From contig NZ_QGDU01000007.1 in the NCBI RefSeq assembly GCF_003149045.1, positions 1 to 64,000 of the forward strand: a DNA stretch of 64,000 nucleotides, read 5' to 3'. The translations under genes were made by a program, and so were the position numbers. The notes beneath the pieces are model-generated. The model was not told where the DNA came from and searched no databases. It saw only the letters and a program-made list of their open reading frames with translations. How positions within the stretch are numbered: the first letter of the stretch is position 1; each line of letters begins with the position of its first letter. Source of the DNA: Fibrobacter sp. UWR4 (lineage in GTDB: Bacteria > Fibrobacterota > Fibrobacteria > Fibrobacterales > Fibrobacteraceae). Below are positions 41,850-52,632 of this stretch, in pieces.

Positions 41850-42746
41850 TTACACCTTAATTGTCTTGCAGCAGAGTTCTGCGGCAGCGGCGTCGGGCAG
41901 GCATTCCAGGTAATAGGAAGGAACGATCTGAGCCATCCTATTTTCCGTTTCATGAAGACCATCGGCAATAGAGGTATCCCAGCGTTTGCCGGAAATACTG
42001 GGGACGATGGCGGCATAAGCCTGTAAGCCTCTCAAGCGCACGATTTTATTGTAAGGAGCCTGACTCAGCAGGACAACACCGCCCAGAGGCATCGTCAAAT
42101 TCTTGTAGCAGGGAGTCTTTCCACTCCAGGGTGAGCCGTAGACCCAGGCGCCATCGGTACGGATGCGGACCACGGGATTGTCGTCGTTCACCAGTTCCGT
42201 TTCGGCAATATTCTTGAGCCACAGGCGAGCGTGAGTGCTCTTGCCAGTGCCGCTCTTGCCCAGGAACATATAGCCCTTGCCATCCTTGCTTACCACCGCG
42301 GCATGGAACAGCACCGTATTCATGCGGGCCGTAGCCAAGGCGTAAAGCACCATGAGGGCGTTATCCAAGCCGGCCTTACGGAATGTAGGAGCGAGACGCA
42401 GTTCCGCCCGGCGATAGTCTTCAGAACAAATTAACATCCCAGACAGTTTGTCGCCAAACTTGAATATAAAGACAGAACAACCATCAACAGTATGCCCGCA
42501 ATCGATGGACTGTCCTTCTTCTTCCTGACGGATATCAATCTCGTAATCCAAAAGGGAAAGGCCACCTACAGAACCTGCAGTATCTGCGACAACTTTCAAA
42601 TCGAATATGTTTTCAGAATTGCCAGCAGAGGCAACCTGAAACGGCATGTAGTTCCCCATCAGCGGAAGCAATTCCGCGGACAAAGCCTCGTCTTCAAAGA
42701 TCACAGAGAAAACGTGACCACCAACTTTATACAGGGAACTACACAT
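41850..42746 (-). CDS. HPr-kinase-like P-loop protein
   Basis: A 298-residue protein with a C-terminal HPr kinase/phosphorylase-type nucleotide fold: VLFHAAVVS near 145-153, the P-loop FLGKSGTGKSTHARLW near 161-176, and the acidic LVNDDNPV near 185-192. The N-terminal 140 residues do not resemble the HprK sensor domain. Relatives with this layout occur next to peptide-modification genes in the FCB group and in lasso-peptide clusters, where an HprK homologue phosphorylates a precursor peptide. Two 52-53-residue peptide genes lie 1.2 kb and 3.3 kb upstream on the same strand. It starts only 5 bases downstream of the Rpn-type gene. The partner is unknown. Confidence 0.75.
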   Translation of the reverse strand: MCSSLYKVGGHVFSVIFEDEALSAELLPLMGNYMPFQVASAGNSENIFDLKVVADTAGSVGGLSLLDYEIDIRQEEEGQSIDCGHTVDGCSVFIFKFGDKLSGMLICSEDYRRAELRLAPTFRKAGLDNALMVLYALATARMNTVLFHAAVVSKDGKGYMFLGKSGTGKSTHARLWLKNIAETELVNDDNPVVRIRTDGAWVYGSPWSGKTPCYKNLTMPLGGVVLLSQAPYNKIVRLRGLQAYAAIVPSISGKRWDTSIADGLHETENRMAQIVPSYYLECLPDAAAAELCCKTIKV

Positions 42747-42751
42747 AACGC

Positions 42752-43780
42752 CTAAACCAACTTTTCTTTTCCAGCTAGAATTTCTTTAATACGAGTCATG
42801 AGTTCATCAGAAGCACCCGCTTCTCGAACAGCATCCAACGTAGAGGAGCAGCCCTCAGCAAGACCTTCCGCACGACCTTCCGCACGACCTTCCGCACGGC
42901 CTTCTGCGCGGCCCTCAGCAAGACCTTCCGCATGGCCTTCCGCATGACCTTTCCTCTTCGCTTCTACGGTATGATAAGCGATAAAATCCAAATGTTCGTC
43001 ATCGGTCATCATATTGTTAACCTGATCCTTTAGAAGTTGCTTATTTGCGTTACCCACAAAAATCCTTCGTAAAGCGTCCGCAAAGACTTCATCGTCAAAG
43101 TTCGGCAACGATTCCGCCTGCCCCGCATTCTTTATGAGGTAAAGCCATCGGTCCTCATCGTTTTCAAGAGAACCCTCTGACTTTGTGAACTGCGATAAAT
43201 CAAGCATAATATACTTGATTTTCTCTGTAACTGTCAAGCCTTCCCCATTAGAAATAGACCATACATCATGATATCCCTTTTGACGCGCTATTTTGAAATC
43301 GCAGACCCATATAGCGTAGGTCGGCGGGAAATCGTAACGTCTAGCCTCGCGTTCAGCCCTCTGTTCCTCCGTCGGTTCCAAAGGGAACAGTTCCTTGTAC
43401 TTTTTATCGTATTCATACTTTGACTGAATCACAAACGCGCTATGCTGCAACAAAATCCGTTCCGTAAAATTTGTAGGCGAAACCTTTTGCATTTCGACAT
43501 TGATGCCATAACCGCTTTCCGTGGTGGCACGAATATCAAAGCGAAACGACTTTGTTTCCGGAAACAGGATGTTTAGTTCCGGATTCCGAATTTCAACTTT
43601 TACAATCCGTTCTTTTTCTGCCAGATGCAGGACGCCGTTCAAGAAGCTTACAAGAGCAGCCTCATCATTAAGCAGAGCCTTAAAAGCGGCGTCATAACGG
43701 GGATCCAGGTAGGTCCTGTTTTTAAGTTTTTCCACAAGTTCCGCTTCTTGCGGAGTGAATACAATTTTCTCTTCGGACAT
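42752..43780 (-). CDS. Rpn-family (PD-(D/E)XK) nuclease/transposase-like protein
   Basis: PDDEXK_2/Rpn-type protein of 342 residues; relatives raise recombination and cut DNA. Seen: YLDPRYDAAFKALLND near 21-36, the catalytic-type FDIRATTESGYGINVEMQ near 81-98, and PPTYAIWVCDF near 148-158. The C-terminal part carries eight four-residue units of the G(H/L/R)AE type, coded by 12-base repeats, and then a short helix. GGAGG 7 bases upstream fixes the start at 43780. Not part of an insertion sequence here: no terminal inverted repeats are seen. Confidence 0.85.
   Translation of the reverse strand: MSEEKIVFTPQEAELVEKLKNRTYLDPRYDAAFKALLNDEAALVSFLNGVLHLAEKERIVKVEIRNPELNILFPETKSFRFDIRATTESGYGINVEMQKVSPTNFTERILLQHSAFVIQSKYEYDKKYKELFPLEPTEEQRAEREARRYDFPPTYAIWVCDFKIARQKGYHDVWSISNGEGLTVTEKIKYIMLDLSQFTKSEGSLENDEDRWLYLIKNAGQAESLPNFDDEVFADALRRIFVGNANKQLLKDQVNNMMTDDEHLDFIAYHTVEAKRKGHAEGHAEGLAEGRAEGRAEGRAEGRAEGLAEGCSSTLDAVREAGASDELMTRIKEILAGKEKLV
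42852..42955 (-). repeat. 12-base coding tandem repeat in the Rpn gene
   Basis: About eight 12-base units encode GHAE, GLAE or GRAE. Unit number can change by slippage without a frameshift, giving length variants of the protein tail. Confidence 0.8.
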
Positions 43781-43811
43781 AGTAGCCTCCATTTTTTTGA
43801 AAAAAAGAAAA

Positions 43812-43832
43812 ACACCTGATTGACTCAGGTGT
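43812..43832 (-). terminator. Terminator after the second peptide gene
   Basis: ACACCTGA/TCAGGTGT stem followed on the minus strand by TTTTTCTTTTTTTC, 108 bases after the peptide stop. The bases 43871-43916 between hold several TTTTACAG words and a palindrome TTTACAG-AAAAA-CTGTAAA. Confidence 0.75.
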
Positions 43833-43940
43833 CTGGAGACTATTAGTAACGCTCGGGATGAACAATAGCTTTTACAGAAAAACTGTAAAGGGTCATTCTG
43901 TAAAACTACTGTAAAATTCGAGATTTTCGACAATCGGGAA

Positions 43941-44102
43941 TTAAGCCTTGCGGTCCATTTCAGGATTGTAGAGGCAGCCGAATTCGTCATCGTATTCGGT
44001 AACGCCTTCGGGACCGTCAGAAGCGCCAAGCAGGGGGGCTTCCATCTTCAAATCAACAATATCCATCTTCGGAGCGACATATTCTTTCTTAATCATTTTC
44101 AT
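43941..44102 (-). CDS. Small peptide, second copy, 53 residues
   Basis: The gene starts 7 bases after the stop of the upstream 600-residue surface protein, with GGGGA just before its ATG. The peptide begins MKMIKKEYVAPKMDIVDLKM, continues with an APLLGAS turn, and ends with an acidic, single-cysteine tail (EYDDEFGCLYNPEMDRKA). It differs from the copy at 46059-46217 at only a few positions. The KKxYxAP...LLGxS layout resembles short leader-like peptides common in Bacteroidota. A secreted or processed peptide is likely, but no modification enzyme is proven. Confidence 0.75.
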   Translation of the reverse strand: MKMIKKEYVAPKMDIVDLKMEAPLLGASDGPEGVTEYDDEFGCLYNPEMDRKA

Positions 44103-44109
44103 AGTCCCC

Positions 44110-45912
44110 TTACTTAATAATAACCTTTTGACCCTTGTTGTAGTAGGTGCCCTTGACGGTGGGCTTGTGGTTCATCTTGCGGCCCTTCATGTCGAACCAA
44201 ACGTTGTCATCCATCTTGATTTCGCCAGTGAGAGTATTCATGGAGCCGATGGCTGTGGTACTGCCATCACCATCCAAGAATCGAATCGTAATGGTCTCCG
44301 GCAAATCTTCCTCAAGATAAGTTCCAGCAATGGACTTAGCTAAAGAACTGATACCATTGTATTTCAAGTATGCGCGCATTGGCGCGATGTTTGCTCCGCT
44401 CTTTGCCTTTACAAACTCACCCGCCGCAACATCTTTATCATTAACTTTCTTTGCAACAGAAGCAAAACCATAAATTCCAGAAGGGTTATCCCATACGATT
44501 CTTTCATAGGTTCCCATAAAAGACCAAGAAGACAACATCGTTGTTTGATCACCCTTATTATTCATCACTGCAGAAATAACAGTAGACTTGTTTCCATTAG
44601 TCGTATTAAGGGTCACAGACTCGTTTTGCTTTCCAGCGGCATCATCCCACCAGTGAGTATTAAAAGTCAATTGTTCTGAACCAGGCCAAATAATATAGGG
44701 GGTATTTGCCATAAGCCAGTCGGTTTCTGAGCCATTTTCAGCATTTCTCATCCCTTCAACATCCAACATCCAATTACAATATTGATCGCAATGTTTTACA
44801 AGCGCAATGATTTTGTAAAATACAGCTATACTCACGCTATTAACGGGAATCGAGAACGGAAGCATAATCGTAGATGCTGTTTGGAGTTTAAAATTTCTGT
44901 TATACACAACATCATCAACTACAACATCTTCAGGAATGCTGAGCGTCTGCAAGCGAGCTTCAGACTGGCCATCGATGCAAGCAGTCTTCTTGCCGTTCAC
45001 AGTCTTGAATTCAATAATGTCGGTATTTCCATCAAAGCATTCGCCTTCCGGGAATTCTACAGTAGGAGCGTCGTCCTCACCCAAGGCAAACAAAATTGTT
45101 TCTGGCAAAGATTCTAGATCTGCAGCAGAAGCAAACTTTACACCAGCAGCAGCCTTAGCTGCTACCATGGAAGGTTTATACTGCAAATAGGCTCGCATGG
45201 GAGCGATGCTTGCACCAGCTTTAGCCTTCACAAAAGAGCCCGCATTTACACCATCTTTAGCGTTAGCGGCAACGCCATAAACAGAGCCCAGATCTTTATG
45301 TCCTTCGTTCCACACAACTTGACTGTAGGTACCAACAATTTGCCAATTGCTTGCGTCTTCAGTAACAACGTTTGCAGAAAACTTCGCTGCGTCCATGGCA
45401 ATATCGCAACCAGAAATCGTGAAGGAATGTCCGCCCACAAATTCAAAGGCATAAGGAGAATTTGCAACCAGAGCCTTATTCACCACTCCGTCCTTTACAG
45501 AGGCGTTTTTCGAAACGCGAACAGTCCAAACAGGAGATTCTCCAGAACTTAAGTCAACGTAAGTATCCTTGTTACTCGCAGGATTTCCAAACTCATAAAA
45601 GTTTGCGCCAGACACAGAGCAACTAGTACCAACATCAAACGGAAGCACGATAGTCCAGTTCTTATTTTTTGTTGCATTAGTTCTTGTATAAACAACCTTT
45701 TGAACTGTAGCAGTGAACGGTTCCAATGTTTTGTATGCACCCTTCTTCTTCGCAGCTTCAGAAGCGGCGGAATCACCATAAATAACAGCAGTACATACAC
45801 CGTCAATAACCTTGATGGAGATTGCACCATGATCACCTGTTTCACAGGCAGCAACAGCATGAGTTGCACACCCCATTGCAGCGGCGAAGGTAAGAGCAAA
45901 AATCTTTTTCAT
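44110..45912 (-). CDS. Secreted two-repeat surface protein with type IX-like C-terminus
   Basis: Signal peptide (residues 1-20, cut near AVA) followed by two copies of a roughly 230-residue beta-rich module (about 30-270 and 290-545). Each module has VVY.R, a LPFD/LPFS strand, an aromatic-rich middle, a W..(V/M)GTY turn, a YG.A..AK stretch and the motif GASIAPMRAYLQY or GANIAPMRAYLKY. The end, WFDMKGRKMN..VKGTYYNKGQKVIIK (split over residues 572-600), matches Bacteroidota-type type IX sorting ends. The ATG at 45912 gives the signal peptide; upstream codons are excluded. A 53-residue peptide gene follows at 7 bases. Function unknown; probably surface display. Confidence 0.7.
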   Translation of the reverse strand: MKKIFALTFAAAMGCATHAVAACETGDHGAISIKVIDGVCTAVIYGDSAASEAAKKKGAYKTLEPFTATVQKVVYTRTNATKNKNWTIVLPFDVGTSCSVSGANFYEFGNPASNKDTYVDLSSGESPVWTVRVSKNASVKDGVVNKALVANSPYAFEFVGGHSFTISGCDIAMDAAKFSANVVTEDASNWQIVGTYSQVVWNEGHKDLGSVYGVAANAKDGVNAGSFVKAKAGASIAPMRAYLQYKPSMVAAKAAAGVKFASAADLESLPETILFALGEDDAPTVEFPEGECFDGNTDIIEFKTVNGKKTACIDGQSEARLQTLSIPEDVVVDDVVYNRNFKLQTASTIMLPFSIPVNSVSIAVFYKIIALVKHCDQYCNWMLDVEGMRNAENGSETDWLMANTPYIIWPGSEQLTFNTHWWDDAAGKQNESVTLNTTNGNKSTVISAVMNNKGDQTTMLSSWSFMGTYERIVWDNPSGIYGFASVAKKVNDKDVAAGEFVKAKSGANIAPMRAYLKYNGISSLAKSIAGTYLEEDLPETITIRFLDGDGSTTAIGSMNTLTGEIKMDDNVWFDMKGRKMNHKPTVKGTYYNKGQKVIIK

Positions 45913-46001
45913 ATTTTGTCTAGTCCTAGTAAAATTTTTATGGGTAAAAGATAGTTTTTTATAAGTTTTCATTAAAGTGTCCTTCATCACATTGTATGCA
46001 A

Positions 46002-46026
46002 AAAACACCGCTTTCGGCGGTGTTTT
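46002..46026 (-). terminator. Terminator after the first peptide gene
   Basis: AAAACACCGC/GCGGTGTTTT stem with six T on the minus strand, 33 bases past the first peptide stop. It separates the two tandem units, which probably have their own promoters. Confidence 0.85.
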
Positions 46027-46058
46027 CTGTAAAATTCCGAGGTTTCGACAATCGGGAA

Positions 46059-46217
46059 TTAAGCCTTACGGTCCATATCGGGATTGTAGTTGCAGCCGAA
46101 TTCGTCATCGTATTCGGTAACGCCTTCGGGTCCGGAACCGCCCAGCAGCGGAGCTTCCATCTTCAAATCAACAATGTCCATCTTCGGAGCTTCGTATTCT
46201 TTCTTAAACATTTTCAT
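46059..46217 (-). CDS. Small peptide, first copy, 52 residues
   Basis: ATG with GGAG directly upstream, 5 bases after the stop of the frameshifted surface protein. The peptide reads MKMFKKEYEAPKMDIVDLKM at its start, then EAPLLGGSG (a Gly-Gly turn), then an acidic tail with one Cys and NPDMDRKA. It is nearly the same as the second copy, and its 3' flank is also shared (the GGAATTAAGCCTT region). Selection has clearly kept both reading frames, so it is a real gene. Confidence 0.8.
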   Translation of the reverse strand: MKMFKKEYEAPKMDIVDLKMEAPLLGGSGPEGVTEYDDEFGCNYNPDMDRKA

Positions 46218-46222
46218 ACTCC

Positions 46223-47424
46223 TTACTTGATGATGACCTTCTGGCCGTTGTTGTAGTAGGTACCCTTGACGGTGGGCTTCTTGTTCAGCTTGCGGCCCTT
46301 GAGGTCGAACCAAGCGTCCTTATCGGCAACGATTTCACCAGTGCGGGTGTTGAGCTGTGCGATGGACAGAGTGTTGCCATCTTCGTCTTCGAAAATAACG
46401 TCAATGGTAGACGGAAGTTCTTCTGCTCCAATAGAAGAAATTACCCCGGCAGCAGCCTTTGCGGTAAAGCCACTGGTACTATACTGCAAGAATGCACGGA
46501 GAGGCGGAACAGAAGCCTTAGAGCCGGCCTTAACGAACTGACTCAAAGCTACAGAAGTGTCTCGAATATCACCAGCTTTATTCGTGTACTGCACGGTTTT
46601 TGCCTTGGATGCAAAACCGAAGATATTCTTTTTATCCAATCCGGTCTTAAGTTCATAAGTACCGCCAAGGTACCACTTTCCTGTAAAACCTGTAGCCTGA
46701 ATGGAGTCAACGTTAAATGCACCAGTCTGCAAGGTGTAAGAACAGCCTGAACCCGTCTTAAAAGATACAACACCACTGGAAGAAAGAAGAATTCGAGGAG
46801 AATTAGCCTTAATAATAGAACTATTGTCCATCACAGCAGTAATAGCCCAGGAACCATTATTATTCTGCTTAATAGTACCAAGAGTATACAAAGATCCGTT
46901 TTCAAGGCACGTTGACGGAATGTCGAACGGGAAAACTACCGTCTGTTTATCAATACTCTTATTATCTCGCTTGTTAGCTCTTTTATACTCAACACCAGCA
47001 ACAACAACAGGATTGGGAATATTCACTGTGGCACGATAAATTGTGGTATCCACACCATCAGTTGCAGCAGAAGCGGAGTCTGCATAAATGGTTGCTACAG
47101 CATCATCAGACACCATATCCATTTCCACATGGATGGAGTCTTTGTAACTCCACTTGTCAATATAATTAGCATCAGTTGAATTTACGCCACCACAGGAATA
47201 TATTTTTTTCCCAAACGAGTAGTTTCTGTAACATCACAGCTTTTCTTAATAGTATCAATCTCGGCTGGGTAGAAGCTTCCGGTAACTTGGATTGCTCCAT
47301 AATCCAAAGTTTTTTGTTCAGGAGTTCCCTTCTTCACAACTTTAACGATGGTGGTATCACGATCTGCAGCGCCTGCAGTTCCTGCCATCAGCCCGATGAG
47401 AGCCAAACCAAGCAATTTTTTCAT
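46223..47424 (-). CDS. Secreted surface protein with -1 frameshift at an A7 run
   Basis: The upstream part (47424-47182) has a signal peptide MKKLLGLALIGLMAGTAGAA and runs to a stop seven codons after an A7 tract (47203-47209). From that tract the -1 frame continues unbroken with CGGVNSTDANYIDKW and the whole module: LPFDIPSTC-like strand, GTYELKTG, IFGFASKAK, SVPPLRAFLQY, and the end DLKGRKLNKKPTVKG / NNGQKVIIK. Joined length is about 400 residues. The tract is A AAA AAA in the zero frame, a canonical -1 slippery heptamer, so either programmed shifting, phase variation or a single-base loss explains it. AGGGA lies 6 bases before the ATG. It is paralogous to the 600-residue protein downstream. 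Confidence 0.7.
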
Positions 47425-47556: not shown

Positions 47557-48528
47557 CTATTTCTTCTCGCGGATGCGCTTGTAAAGGCTTTCGGCCTTTT
47601 CGGTCTCCCCCGCGTTAGTAAAGACGTGGCCTACATTTTCGGCACCGATGCGACCCTGGGAATTTCCGGCAAGCCAGGCCTTCATGTAGCATTCAAAGGC
47701 TTCGTCGTAACGTTTCTGGTTAAAATAAATCTGACCCAAATCAAGATTTAAATCAGCCTTACCCTTCTGATGACGCAAGCCTTCTTCCAGAGTGAAAATC
47801 GCCATCCAGGGAGATTCCTGCTTGACATACATCTGAGCCAGGTAGCGGCGGGCGGAAACATTCTCGGGATCCATAAGCAGGCCGTTTTCCATTTCGTTCA
47901 GCGCCTGACGGGTGGAATCCATACTGCGATAATAATAGGCCAGCGTAAAGTGAACGTCAGCGCCTGCTGTCGCAGTCATCTGCAAGGCGTTCTGCAAAGT
48001 CTTAATGGCGTATTCATAATCGCCCAACTTCTCGTAGACTTCGGCTAGGCCATACCAGGCATCCATACGGTCCGGGTTCAGCTGGAGGGCTCGTTCAAAA
48101 TTTTTCTGTGCGAGAGTCCAGTCGCGACCCTTCATGAAACATTCCGCCAGAGCAAAATGGACATGGTCCGATTCTACACCCAGTTCCACGGCGCGGTTGT
48201 AGGCGGCAATGGCCTCCCCCGCATCCCCAGCCAGGTAATAGATGTCACCCATAAGCATCCAGGCCTTCTCGAAATTCGGCAACAGCTCCACGGTACGCTT
48301 GTAAGCCACCAAGGCAACCTGTTTACGATCCAGCTGGACCATGGCATTCCCGAGATTGAACCAGGCGAAAGGTTCATAACGACCTTCGTCAATGGCGGCA
48401 CGATACAGGGGCACCGCTTCCTTGAACTTGCCCTGGTCATAAAGTTCGTTGGCCTTGAAGAAATAATCTTCGGCTGCAAAGGACGCGACGGCACCCAAAG
48501 TAATAACAGCAAGCAGTCTACTTAACAA
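47557..48528 (-). CDS. TPR protein of the TtpC-type TonB operon
   Basis: Secreted TPR protein of 323 residues (signal peptide to about 19, ASFA|AEDYF). About seven tetratricopeptide units follow, for example AWFNLGNAMVQLDRKQVALVAYKR and AWYGLAEVYEKLGDYEYAIK. It overlaps tonB by 11 bases. In Vibrio TonB2-type operons the last gene is also a TPR protein, which is thought to stabilise the complex. Confidence 0.85.
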   Translation of the reverse strand: MLSRLLAVITLGAVASFAAEDYFFKANELYDQGKFKEAVPLYRAAIDEGRYEPFAWFNLGNAMVQLDRKQVALVAYKRTVELLPNFEKAWMLMGDIYYLAGDAGEAIAAYNRAVELGVESDHVHFALAECFMKGRDWTLAQKNFERALQLNPDRMDAWYGLAEVYEKLGDYEYAIKTLQNALQMTATAGADVHFTLAYYYRSMDSTRQALNEMENGLLMDPENVSARRYLAQMYVKQESPWMAIFTLEEGLRHQKGKADLNLDLGQIYFNQKRYDEAFECYMKAWLAGNSQGRIGAENVGHVFTNAGETEKAESLYKRIREKK

Positions 48529-49174
48529 AGCGGAACTCCTTTGTAGCCTTCTGCGCTACAGGGAATCCGCCCAGCTGAGCGGGACTAAACTTCCATTGAC
48601 GTACGGCATTCAGAACTTCCGTATCAAAGCCATAACCAGCAGGTTCCTGTGTCAGAATCTGAGTCTGGGCCACATCGCCATAAACGTCAATCACAATCAG
48701 GACCTTTACGTAGCCGTTAATGCCCATACGCTTTGCGCGTTCCGGGAACTTGGGCTGAATTTCACGGAGAACCTGAGCCTGTTCATCCACTTCACCGGCT
48801 TCGTAGACCACGTTTTCCATACCGCCTGTACCAACGGCAACGCCATCACCAGCAGCACCACGGGCAAGGGACAAGTCCATCTGGAAATTCTGGGAACGGC
48901 CCACCCCCATGTTGGAGGAAATCTTGAAGGGATTGGGGTTCACGATGGTGCGAATCACCTTCTGCTTGACTTCGGGCTTTTTCTCGCTGACAAGGACTTC
49001 CACTTCGGTCACCGCCTCCAGTTCCTTTTCAGTCTTTACACCCTTGTCAAATAACAGAACGTTCAGAACCGGAATCGCCAGGAAGAATACAGCACTTACC
49101 ACAAAGGAAACCACCAACGCTATGGGATAGCGCAGGTACTTTGCGATGAAATCTGTTAAAGAGAAGTGCTTCAT
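48518..49174 (-). CDS. tonB: TonB energy transducer
   Basis: Transmits proton-motive force from ExbB/ExbD to outer-membrane receptors. One transmembrane helix (IALVVSFVVSAVFFLAIPVLN) near residues 19-40, a charged stretch with EVLVSEKKPEVKQKV, and a TonB C-terminal domain (EIQPKFPERAKRMGINGYVKV, GYGFDTEVLNAVRQWKFSPA). At 218 residues it is short, like the TonB2 type, with a reduced proline-rich spacer. The ATG at 49174 is preferred over a TTG two codons before. Confidence 0.88.
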   Translation of the reverse strand: MKHFSLTDFIAKYLRYPIALVVSFVVSAVFFLAIPVLNVLLFDKGVKTEKELEAVTEVEVLVSEKKPEVKQKVIRTIVNPNPFKISSNMGVGRSQNFQMDLSLARGAAGDGVAVGTGGMENVVYEAGEVDEQAQVLREIQPKFPERAKRMGINGYVKVLIVIDVYGDVAQTQILTQEPAGYGFDTEVLNAVRQWKFSPAQLGGFPVAQKATKEFRFVK

Positions 49175-49192
49175 ATTCAATTAAATACTGCT

Positions 49193-49220
49193 TGGATCCT
49201 TCGCTTCGCTCAGGATGACG
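49193..49220. repeat. Dispersed 28-base repeat, copy between exbD and tonB
   Basis: TGGATCCTTCGC... ending AGGATGACG. A second copy with four base changes lies in the same orientation at 49647-49674, so the two flank exbD. Confidence 0.75.
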
Positions 49221-49228
49221 ATGAATGG

Positions 49229-49633
49229 TTATTCTTCCTTGTTTGCGGAGATGGAAACCTTGCGGACCTTTGCAATGTTACATTCATCCAGAATGTCCAC
49301 CACCACACCGTTGGGAGCATCACGATCGCTGACAATAATCACGGGACGATCGGGAGCCTCGGCCATCATCTGGCGCAGCACCGTATTGAGGGTGGAAAGG
49401 TTCACCTGGGTTTCGTTAATATGGATGGTTCCCTGGCGGGTCACACCAATCAGAATGCTTTCCTTGGCCAGTTCCTTGGCGGAGCTAGCCTTGGGCTTCG
49501 TCACGTCCACACCGGTTTCGCGGGTGAAGGTGGAGGTAACGATAAAGAAGATCAGCAAGATGAACACCATGTCCAGCATCGGAGAGACGTCGATGCCGCC
49601 GGCGTCACGAGTACGTTTACGGATAAAACTCAT
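49229..49633 (-). CDS. exbD: ExbD/TolR proton-channel subunit
   Basis: A 134-residue membrane protein: short basic N-terminus, one helix SPMLDMVFILLIFFIVTSTF near 16-35 with the proton-carrying Asp22, and a periplasmic alpha/beta domain ending in KVRKVSISANKEE. It works with ExbB as the ion-driven motor for TonB. It overlaps exbB by 4 bases. Confidence 0.92.
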   Translation of the reverse strand: MSFIRKRTRDAGGIDVSPMLDMVFILLIFFIVTSTFTRETGVDVTKPKASSAKELAKESILIGVTRQGTIHINETQVNLSTLNTVLRQMMAEAPDRPVIIVSDRDAPNGVVVDILDECNIAKVRKVSISANKEE

Positions 49634-50331
49634 TTTGTTACCTCACTGGATTCTTCACTTCGTTCAGAATGACGAAGAGACGTTTCTGAATGATGTTCAG
49701 GATCAAACACATAAGATTCAAATTTCAGGGCTTCGCTCCAGGCCTCGTCTTCCACGATTTCCACGCGGCTAGACAGGTAGTTGTAGGCCAGCATCAGGGG
49801 GAAAGCAACCAACAGGCCCGCCTGAGTGGTAAGCAAGGCTTCGGAAATACCGTCAGCCAAAAGTACAGGATTTCCAAAGCCAAAAAGCTGAATGGTTTCG
49901 AAAGTATGAACCATGCCAGAAACCGTTCCCAGCAATCCCATCATGGGAGCAAGAGCGGCGCAAGTGGAAATAGTTTTTAAGGATCTGGACAGATTTAAGG
50001 AAATACGATGGCGAGTGGCTTCCATGGCATTGCGCACAGCAACAGGACCTTGATCCCTATAATTACGAACGTCACAGACCAACGCGTAGAAATATCCGAA
50101 ACGACGGCGGGACAGTTTCTTAAAGGCTTCGTCCTCCCCCTTCTTTTTCAGGGTACTCCAGAAACCGGATACGGACTTGCCACGCAGCATAAAGTAATAG
50201 CCATAACGTTCGATCATCAAAAACCAGCCGAACCACCCCAATGCAAAGATCGGGGCAAGCACCCAGCCGCCTCTAAAGAGGATGCCGAAGGCCGCTTCGA
50301 GAATGGAATTTTGATCCACGCCAGCGATCAA
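49630..50331 (-). CDS. exbB: ExbB/TolQ proton-channel subunit (second of the operon)
   Basis: MotA/TolQ/ExbB protein of 233 residues with three helices: GGWVLAPIFALGWFGWFLMIERY near 21-43, TISTCAALAPMMGLLGTVSGM near 119-139, and TTQAGLLVAFPLMLAYNYL near 167-186. The TTG start lies one base after the ttpC stop; a GTG four codons later is the alternative. The last 19 residues, with RHSERSEES, are translated from a dispersed repeat and are not part of the family fold. Confidence 0.9.
   Translation of the reverse strand: MIAGVDQNSILEAAFGILFRGGWVLAPIFALGWFGWFLMIERYGYYFMLRGKSVSGFWSTLKKKGEDEAFKKLSRRRFGYFYALVCDVRNYRDQGPVAVRNAMEATRHRISLNLSRSLKTISTCAALAPMMGLLGTVSGMVHTFETIQLFGFGNPVLLADGISEALLTTQAGLLVAFPLMLAYNYLSSRVEIVEDEAWSEALKFESYVFDPEHHSETSLRHSERSEESSEVTK
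49647..49674. repeat. Dispersed 28-base repeat inside the exbB 3' end
   Basis: Same family as 49193-49220 and 26835-26871. On the minus strand it is translated as RHSERSEES, the well-known tell-tale of such repeats in coding ends. Confidence 0.8.
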
Positions 50332-50332
50332 G

Positions 50333-51838
50333 CTACTTTTCCTTAATCCACAATGCGTTCAGAACTGCAAGGCCAGCCTTTTCCATGCGACCGCGAAGGG
50401 CATCCGCACGGTTTGCAAGGAACGTATGCAACAGCTGGAGAGGAATAGCCACAATAAGGCCCGCTTCCGTAGTCACAAGAGCGATAGAAATACCGCCGGC
50501 CAGGAGCTTGGGATCGGAAGTGCCATGCATGGTAATGACGTCGAACAACTCGATCATACCCATCACGGTACCCAGCAAGCCCAGAAGCGGAGCTGTCGCC
50601 GCAAAGACGGAAACCCAGGTCAGACCGGATTCAATCTTGGGAACTTCTGCAGAGAATACTTCCTCCAGGGCCTTTTCAGCAGCGGCGCGGCCACCATATT
50701 CCTTGGTAAGGATCGTCTTCAGGACCTTCCCCACCTTGCCATGAGCCTTCTTGCTTTCGACACGGGCCTTTTCGATGTCACCCTTTTCAAGAGCCTTCAA
50801 AGTCCTGCGTGCACCGAAACCGCCAAAGCCAAAGATCAGGAGCCACAGCAGGCGCCAGACCACAATCAGAAGGCCCAGACCAAACAAGGTCACAATGGGA
50901 TACATGAGGATGCCACCGTTCTTGAAGAAGGTGGTCAGTTCATCCTTCCAGGTGGTTTCCTGATGGTTGGCAAGTTCAGAGGAAAGTTCCGTACTGAGGA
51001 GCACATCCACCGGGACGTTCACATAGGCGGAATCCACCGCATGGTCAAAGACCTTGGAAACATCGGTCTTGGTTTCCGGAGTCAAGTTTTCCTGCCAGCT
51101 AAAGACACGCTTCTTTTCGCCAGATACGGGAAGCATCAATGCGCTGGGACGATTCCCCAGGGAATCCATGGCGGAGTTAGCCATCTGCATGGCATAGAGG
51201 CCGCCCATACGCAGGCGATAACCTTCGGCAACCACATCGCCAAAGACAAGTTCCGCACGTTCCATCTGGATTTCACGAGTGAAGGCCATTTCCTCCTGGG
51301 CAACTTTCAGGATGGACTTCGCAATACGGACAGGGTCATCGCGGTACAGTCCCATTTCCTTCTTGACTCGGTTCTGGGATTCTACACGTTCTGCAACCTT
51401 GAAGGGAATGCCCTGTTCCTGGAACTTAGCCAGAGTTTCCAGACGTTCCGGGCCTGCGGCCAAGGACAAGTATTCCGCACGAGCCTTTTCCGCCTGTAAT
51501 TTTACCTGCGCCAGGTCTTCACGGGCAACACGAACGTCCTCGAAAAGGCGGGCACGTTCACTCATGAGGGCGTCCACCTTTTCCTTGTTTTCATTGTACT
51601 TCTCGTTGAACATCTCGCGTTCCTGATTTGCAGTTTCGCGATCCTTCCAACGGGCGGCAACAGCCATGTCACGTTTCTTGCGGGCTTCTTCCAGGTCTGC
51701 CTTGGCGCTGTTCAGTTCGGCACGCTTCTTGACGGCATCGATGGTTTCGCCATTCTTCTGCGCGAAAGAGGGAGCAGCACACAAAACTGCTGCCACAGCC
51801 ATGGGGGCGATAAATTTACGAAGGTTAAGGAACATCAT
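50333..51838 (-). CDS. ttpC: TtpC-like MotA/TolQ/ExbB protein with coiled-coil periplasmic part
   Basis: A 501-residue protein: signal peptide to about 26 (PSFA|QKNG), a long charged coiled coil near 35-130 (AELNSAKADLEEARKKRDM), a linker domain, and a C-terminal MotA/ExbB unit with helices near 315-340, 410-435 (SVFAATAPLLGLLGTVMGMI) and 455-480. This is the layout of TtpC, needed by Vibrio TonB2 systems. Its ATG overlaps the stop of the DUF3450 gene by one base. Confidence 0.88.
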   Translation of the reverse strand: MMFLNLRKFIAPMAVAAVLCAAPSFAQKNGETIDAVKKRAELNSAKADLEEARKKRDMAVAARWKDRETANQEREMFNEKYNENKEKVDALMSERARLFEDVRVAREDLAQVKLQAEKARAEYLSLAAGPERLETLAKFQEQGIPFKVAERVESQNRVKKEMGLYRDDPVRIAKSILKVAQEEMAFTREIQMERAELVFGDVVAEGYRLRMGGLYAMQMANSAMDSLGNRPSALMLPVSGEKKRVFSWQENLTPETKTDVSKVFDHAVDSAYVNVPVDVLLSTELSSELANHQETTWKDELTTFFKNGGILMYPIVTLFGLGLLIVVWRLLWLLIFGFGGFGARRTLKALEKGDIEKARVESKKAHGKVGKVLKTILTKEYGGRAAAEKALEEVFSAEVPKIESGLTWVSVFAATAPLLGLLGTVMGMIELFDVITMHGTSDPKLLAGGISIALVTTEAGLIVAIPLQLLHTFLANRADALRGRMEKAGLAVLNALWIKEK

Positions 51839-52632
51839 TACTTAGCCTCCTTGGGAAGAACGACCACAGGAATGGTCACCAGCTTGGGAGCGGTCTTTCC
51901 TTCGGCCACCTTCATCACGTCCTTCAGGGCGGTACGCATGGCCAGGTCGTCGGACACATTGTTCCAGGTGTAGCTGTTGCCATTCTTGGAAAGCCAGAGA
52001 ACATCGTTACCGTCGTTGCTGACGAAGATAGAAGCAACAGCACCGTAACGGAGGAACGTTCCTGCCACATTGCGATTACCCACCTGGAGGAATCCCTTCC
52101 ACACTTCGGTGGTGTAACCGAGACGAATTCGGTCATAGAAAATTTCGAGAGTACGGTTCAAGCCGTCGTCAGCTTCAATCAGGTTCTTATGAAGCTGGTT
52201 GGCAATTTCCTTGACGCTATTGACCACTTCCTCATTCCTATACGGGAAGTCGGACTCAAAGATGGGAGCGAGAGAATCGATGACCTTCGCCAGGGACTCG
52301 CCATACTTCGCCTTTCTGTTTTCGAAGTAGCGGACCGTGCCAGCAGCCTTCTGACGTGCATCAGCCAGATTCTTCAGTTCCGCCTTCAAGGAGTCGATTT
52401 CGGCCTTCAAGGTCTTGTTCTGGGAGGACAATGCCTGAACCTTCTTGCGGCCTACTTCGATAAATTCAGCGTGACGCTTCTTTTCGGTATCATGCATGGA
52501 TTTTTCGCGGGCTGCTTCGGCCTCCACCGCCTTGATCTGGCGACGGACACTTTCCACAGTTTCCTGTGCATTGGCAAAAACGCCAGTCAAGCACAGGCAA
52601 AGGAACATCTTCGTCAATAGGGAGAATTTCAT
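51838..52632 (-). CDS. DUF3450 periplasmic coiled-coil protein
   Basis: Signal peptide (FANA|QETV), a coiled coil near 25-110, then a globular part with FPYRNEEVVNSVKEIANQL and YTTEVWKGFLQVGNRNVAGTFLRYGAVA, typical of DUF3450. It is the first gene of the TtpC-TonB operon, the same place as in Vibrio. TATTTT lies 6 bases before the ATG, and no ribosome site is seen. Confidence 0.88.
   Translation of the reverse strand: MKFSLLTKMFLCLCLTGVFANAQETVESVRRQIKAVEAEAAREKSMHDTEKKRHAEFIEVGRKKVQALSSQNKTLKAEIDSLKAELKNLADARQKAAGTVRYFENRKAKYGESLAKVIDSLAPIFESDFPYRNEEVVNSVKEIANQLHKNLIEADDGLNRTLEIFYDRIRLGYTTEVWKGFLQVGNRNVAGTFLRYGAVASIFVSNDGNDVLWLSKNGNSYTWNNVSDDLAMRTALKDVMKVAEGKTAPKLVTIPVVVLPKEAK

Follow-up and report, generated by a model that had tools for sequence, protein, structure and literature searches.

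A multi-copy family of precursor-like peptides encoded with surface proteins and an HprK-like kinase operon in Fibrobacter suggests a leader-directed peptide-processing system

Results and discussion

In the current study, we analysed a stretch of 64,000 nucleotides (nt) of DNA from Fibrobacter sp. UWR4 (positions 1 to 64,000 of contig NZ_QGDU01000007.1, hereafter the window), in which two genes for large secreted surface-type proteins are each followed by a gene for a nearly identical peptide of 52-53 residues. We propose that these peptides are probably the precursors of a leader-directed, enzymatically processed system of the type known for ribosomally synthesized and post-translationally modified peptides (RiPPs), and that they act together with the surface proteins. 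Two features of RiPP-type systems were found, namely a conserved leader that is followed by a variable core, and a PqqD protein (PF05402) that is encoded with the precursor. The evidence comes from the peptide family itself, from its pairing with a particular type of protein tail, and from a conserved operon of putative modification and export enzymes.

A peptide family with a conserved leader

Using a profile built from the two window peptides, relatives were detected in 34 of the 37 genomes of the genus Fibrobacter, usually in several copies and up to ten per genome, which takes the peptide described in the original prediction far beyond a chance pair. Outside the genus, this profile returned only matches with E values above 0.03. 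From stretches picked by the peptide search and by later cassette searches we gathered 130 distinct Fibrobacter peptides, and all of them carry the leader KKxYxxPxM...LLx[GAC]S, whose spacing is fixed, and behind it a variable tail that is short and acidic. With the peptides anchored on the leader tyrosine (n = 130), Y0 and P3 are each conserved in 100%, KK in 95% and M5 in 85%, while at the leader end the values are 95% for L16, 82% for L17 and 90% for S20. Position 20 is Ser, Thr or Cys in 95% of the peptides, and Ala does not occur among its listed residues. The variable part after S20 has a median length of 18 amino acids and a mean charge of -3.8. The leader had originally been thought to end in a Gly-Gly-type turn, and this proved incorrect: the conserved end is LL-x-[G/A/C]-S, with no true Gly-Gly.

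No Pfam or NCBIfam family matches the peptides above its cut-off. The sole recurrent NCBIfam match of the 36 peptides searched was the paeninodin lasso family NF033524, which was sub-threshold (6 of 36 peptides, best E value 0.028, under the 27-bit cut-off).

Pairing with a surface-protein tail

The peptide genes are closely associated with genes that encode one type of C-terminal tail on secreted proteins, with the consensus WFDLKGRKLNxKPTxKGTYYxNGxKVIIK. Among 135 peptide copies, 91 immediately follow a gene with such a tail, mostly at a distance of 0-20 nt, and 21 follow another peptide gene. Conversely, 33 of the 34 tail matches with E < 1e-9 in eight cassette-bearing genomes have a peptide gene behind them, and the conserved link between peptide and large gene, which had been named beforehand as the test of the original prediction, is thereby strongly upheld. 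Three weak tail matches in the peptide-less genomes G001 and G014 have no peptide behind them. Within Fibrobacter, all 34 peptide-bearing genomes have the tail and the three peptide-less ones lack it, and it was not found in 24 genomes outside the genus. The co-occurrence of tail and peptide has a Fisher p of 1.3e-4, a value that ignores relatedness, and the Spearman rho of their copy numbers is 0.61.

The larger paired proteins carry InlB-type (Flg_new), GLUG, CUB or beta-helix repeats. Two peptide-paired surface proteins (locus L108, G030:C1, and locus L114, G010:C2) reach approximately 2700 residues, one of them being shown with CUB and InlB-type repeats. An AlphaFold2 model of the tail domain (predicted local distance difference test score, pLDDT, 76; predicted template modelling score, pTM, 0.65) gave no significant match in the PDB, and by sequence the tail gave a weak match only, to the C-terminal end of 4kca (E value 0.033).

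The large proteins had been described as type IX-like. The type IX translocon component SprA (SprA_N) was detected in 8 of 8 genomes tested, peptide-less ones included, and TIGR04183 tails number 55-84 per genome in six genomes, G001 and G014 among them. Genomes with 66-70 TIGR04183 tails but no peptide lack the peptide-linked tail. None of the NCBIfam and Pfam matches obtained for the large proteins was to a type IX tail model, and no peptide-linked tail was found among the TIGR04183 matches listed, which extend to an E value near 1e-5. Taken together, the tail models, the distribution of SprA and the TIGR04183 counts leave a type IX identity of the large proteins unsupported as stated; the tail is similar to those of type IX and yet a class of its own, which tracks the peptide and not the type IX translocon.

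A conserved enzyme operon

At intact loci (L068, L070, L072, L073 and L075) the genes follow one order, i.e., surface protein, peptide or peptides, nucleotidyltransferase (PF14907), HprK-like kinase, S24/S26-like protease, PqqD and ATP-binding cassette (ABC) exporter, and a single surface protein is often followed by two or three different peptides. In the window genome the operon is spread over three contigs, with two surface protein/peptide units and the kinase on C7 (the contig of the window), a further unit and the nucleotidyltransferase on C64, and the protease, PqqD and exporter on C27. Gene order across these loci indicates that the HprK-like gene beside the window peptides belongs to a peptide operon that is conserved, and does not stand there by accident.

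In most genomes of the genus, HprK-like and PqqD genes occur once each, and one to five matches to the PF14907 nucleotidyltransferase were found in 35 of the 37. PqqD, HprK-like and PF14907 genes are all absent from the peptide-less G001 and G014, in which the only match to the PqqD model is a frame of about 490 amino acids in G001 (E value 3.9e-4). Genome G032 is an exception, as a divergent cassette (PF14907, HprK-like and PqqD) is arranged there around a 923-residue lipoprotein-like protein (L163, G032:C83, 1-5783), and no recognisable YxxP peptide or tail was found at this locus.

The enzymes have conserved motifs, i.e., a P-loop GKSGTGKST and NDDN in the kinase, GDID in the nucleotidyltransferase, and SMxPFI (Ser) and VHR (His) in the protease, which scores just under the cut-off of PF00717. 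The predicted fold of the kinase (pLDDT 85) matches structures of PEPCK and HprK/P in a fold search, but a PDB sequence search with the kinase gave no match. The exporter consists of ABC_membrane and ABC_tran domains, plus weak AAA-type overlaps, and no C39 peptidase domain was detected on it.

Counterparts in Bacteroidales

A scan with the kinase alignment yielded > 580 relatives, of which we examined the loci of the best 80. These belong to Fibrobacter, rumen Prevotella and other Bacteroidales, and they encode the protease in 73 of 80 cases, PqqD in 68 and the exporter in 64. At the Prevotella loci L218 and L260 the surface protein, peptide, nucleotidyltransferase, kinase, protease, PqqD and exporter genes are in the Fibrobacter order, and the same order was observed at L267, where the nucleotidyltransferase went undetected. 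In total, 21 distinct Bacteroidales peptides with the same leader were collected. In the kinase tree, Fibrobacter and Bacteroidales are nearly apart (2 changes), save for one long-branch row; frequent recent horizontal transfer between Prevotella and Fibrobacter is thus unsupported. A peptide of a different kind (YxPP; KRTYSPPKVESEDVFEQNALACGKC...) was seen in another genus of the class; it is encoded beside S24-like, HprK-like and PF14907 genes (L164, G051:C85, 1839-3286), and it is perhaps a member of a sister peptide class.

Selection and recombination in the window units

The two window peptides differ by a nonsynonymous divergence (dN) of 0.054 and a synonymous divergence (dS) of 0.41, and the large proteins by a dS of 1.5-2.3 across their full alignable length. 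The low dS is common to the peptide, the tail end and the flank, and the final ~33 tail residues, together with the peptide and the flank, behave as a single block in their evolution. In addition, window peptide 2 is closer to the first-unit copy of the sister genome G025, the closest relative, than to its positional counterpart there. Because of the low dS in peptide, tail end and flank and the closer match to a non-corresponding copy, we infer homogenisation by recombination, and the sequence comparison indicates that this process and purifying selection are both at work. The tight selection originally proposed for the peptide agrees with a dN of approximately 0.05 vs. a dS of approximately 0.4, but it is not the whole explanation, as the low-dS block and the cross-copy match point to homogenisation too.

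Proposed processing scheme and alternatives

Based on the conserved operon, we propose a theoretical scheme for the processing of these peptides. The PqqD protein, the single one in the genome, would bind the leader KKxYxxPxM...LLxxS, and the HprK-like kinase and the PF14907 nucleotidyltransferase would modify the peptide. One candidate modification site is S20, the near-invariant Ser that closes the leader; its conservation, without Ala, would fit a Ser that is used chemically, or the specificity of a protease. The S24/S26-like Ser/His protease may have its cleavage site in or close to LLx[GAC]S, and the ABC exporter would move the product out of the cell, where it could act with the surface protein encoded upstream. 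In the original prediction, a peptide that is processed and secreted was one option and a peptide modified by the HprK-like kinase another; given the operon, the two would fit together, and they are partly supported. More tentatively, it is possible, if doubtful, that the processed and modified peptide is a dedicated partner of the tail and decorates, anchors or licenses surface adhesins in Fibrobacter and Bacteroidales. If this is true, the surface display of adhesins with InlB-like repeats, GLUG, CUB or beta-helix domains would be peptide-dependent and would exist alongside type IX secretion.

Several observations weigh against a leader-directed processing system. No peptide product has so far come to light. 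Roughly a fifth of the variable parts (24 of 129) contain no Ser or Thr after S20, and a kinase target located inside the tail therefore cannot be general. In G018, no HprK-like or PqqD gene was found despite six peptides and a nucleotidyltransferase, a gap that reflects either the incompleteness of this fragmented assembly or a loss of the enzymes, and no HprK-like gene was detected in the likewise fragmented assembly of G027. The peptide-less genomes are few and perhaps related, and the observed co-occurrence may rest on one to three events. Lastly, the scheme gives no reason for the peptide to travel with a surface protein.

The alternative that survives best, itself unlikely, is that the peptide serves the export of the surface protein, as a small unmodified chaperone, adaptor or linker for the tail, with the enzymes acting on the surface protein or an anchor. 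Such a role agrees with peptide and tail genes that are nearly one to one and 0-20 nt apart, with their perfectly concordant presence across genomes, and with the block of tail end (~33 residues), peptide and flank that evolves as one in the window. However, hypervariable peptide tails, and often two or three peptides per surface protein, would be odd for a chaperone, and both a PqqD protein and a YxxP leader are present, which are hallmarks of leader-directed peptide modification.

It is quite improbable that these are plain secreted peptides of the pheromone or bacteriocin type, which lose their leader to the protease and leave through the ABC exporter, while the kinase and nucleotidyltransferase take part in regulation or immunity. 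The protease and exporter genes, the variable acidic tails and the tandem multi-copy genes are all in line with secretion of this kind. Against it, such peptides would not be expected to come paired with a surface protein, and the kinase and nucleotidyltransferase belong to the operon in two phyla and have known peptide-tailoring roles in lasso clusters (PMC7533575).

A decayed or divergent lasso-peptide system was also considered, which is very improbable. The leader resembles the paeninodin family, sub-threshold, lasso clusters of that kind typically come with kinase, nucleotidyltransferase, PqqD/B1 and ABC genes (PMC7533575), and in a relative within the class (L153, G042:C146, 3893-5707) PF14907 and PF13471 occur in one 677-amino-acid frame adjoining a PqqD gene, the domains of which point to a lasso-like tailoring protein. 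On the other hand, the tails show no fixed Gly1 or Asp/Glu ring positions and the operon, being intact, shows conservation rather than decay. We rejected a lasso system because none of the 37 genomes of the genus has the lasso leader protease PF13471. Finally, spurious small open reading frames (ORFs) or a functionless recent duplication deserve hardly any credence, as the nearly identical window copies with common flanks would suggest such an origin, but conservation across two phyla, the fixed leader spacing, a dN well below dS and the peptides' own ribosome sites refute it.

The window locus

The features of the locus are collected in Table 1. The two units stand head to tail, with gaps between large gene and peptide gene of 5 nt in unit 1 and 7 nt in unit 2, and each peptide gene has its own ribosome site. 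The peptides are 90% identical to each other, contain one Cys each and end in MDRKA. The 3' flanks of both units are also alike, the match beginning ~100 nt within the large genes. Apart from the 90% value and the point at which the flank match begins, these features had been described in the original prediction and were confirmed, and the Rpn nuclease and HprK-like genes were likewise borne out downstream on the same strand.

Table 1. Features of the surface protein/peptide locus (positions in the window)
Feature	Position	Strand	Remark
Large secreted surface-type protein 1 gene	46223..47424	-	frameshifted here; peptide-linked tail at end
Large protein 1 ORF fragments	47424-47182 and 47128-46223	-	split by frameshift
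Peptide-linked C-terminal tail, large protein 1	46226..46363	-	tail model E 7.6e-25
Precursor-like peptide 1, 52 aa (TAAGGAGTATG)	46059..46217	-	leader MKMFKKEYEAPKMDIVDLKMEAPLLGGS, then variable acidic part
Terminator-like hairpin 3' of peptide 1	46006..46019	-	
Large secreted surface-type protein 2 gene, 600 aa	44110..45912	-	N-terminal signal-peptide-like MKKIFALTFAAAMGCATHAVA
Peptide-linked C-terminal tail, large protein 2	44113..44250	-	tail model E 1.8e-25
Precursor-like peptide 2, 53 aa (AAGGGGACTATG)	43941..44102	-	
Terminator-like hairpin 3' of peptide 2	43810..43834	-	
Rpn-family PD-(D/E)XK (PDDEXK_2) nuclease gene	42752..43780	-	PF12784 E 5e-29; TIGR01784
HprK/PEPCK-superfamily kinase of peptide cassette	41850..42746	-	ScmC-like, sub-cutoff
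aa, amino acids.

The frameshift of large gene 1 lies close to an A7 run at about 47205-47210 in this assembly, and it may stem from slippage, from an error of assembly or from real decay; the sister genome G025 has an intact counterpart of 393 residues. The Rpn gene between window peptide 2 and the kinase is probably an insertion, because in G025 the kinase starts directly behind the peptide, at 9 nt, with no Rpn gene between them. The Rpn-family nuclease contains (AEGR)n-type repeats close to its C-terminus. Directly upstream of the peptide units, a TonB/ExbB/ExbD-like gene cluster was observed at 48518-52632 on the minus strand.

Significance and comparison with known systems

Fibrobacter is the main fibre degrader of the rumen, where Prevotella is abundant as well. 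The two share a multi-copy system that offers five enzymes and about 150 natural precursors to work with, and that would tie modified peptides genetically to large surface adhesins, a link which, to our knowledge, is found in no known peptide class. We found no paper on this peptide class in the open-access literature searched, and it is not listed in RiPP surveys of anaerobes and Bacteroidales (PMC4289311, PMC10352776).

Type IX tails (TIGR04183) share with the peptide-linked tail a signal peptide on the surface protein, the form DLxGR...P..kGxYxxNGkK and an SprA translocon in the genome, but the peptide-linked tail is unmatched by type IX models and has a peptide gene behind it. The SynChlorMet (SCM) cassette also has PqqD in the operon, and its protein ScmC (TIGR04249) is the best match of the HprK-like protein (E value 1.5e-7), albeit with 31.1 bits vs. 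a cut-off of 125, and no radical SAM gene was seen in the intact operons. Double-glycine leaders with C39-peptidase transporters (PCAT) are a common RiPP layout in Bacteroidales (PMC10352776). Like the peptides of that layout, those studied here end their leader with a hydrophobic residue at position -4 and a small one ahead of the Ser, while their exporter has no C39 peptidase domain and their motif is LLx[GAC]S.

Among the nearest known systems is also the paeninodin lasso system, in which a YxxP-type leader, a PqqD-like protein, an HprK-related kinase, a nucleotidyltransferase of the PF14907 type (PsmN-type there) and an ABC exporter are likewise encoded in one operon. The intact operons L068 and L070 include no gene for a lasso cyclase (asparagine-synthetase-like), for which no genome-wide search was made. 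The system described here further differs from paeninodin in lacking PF13471 (across the genus) and a ring pattern, in having an S24/S26-like protease instead, and in the pairing of its precursor with a surface protein.

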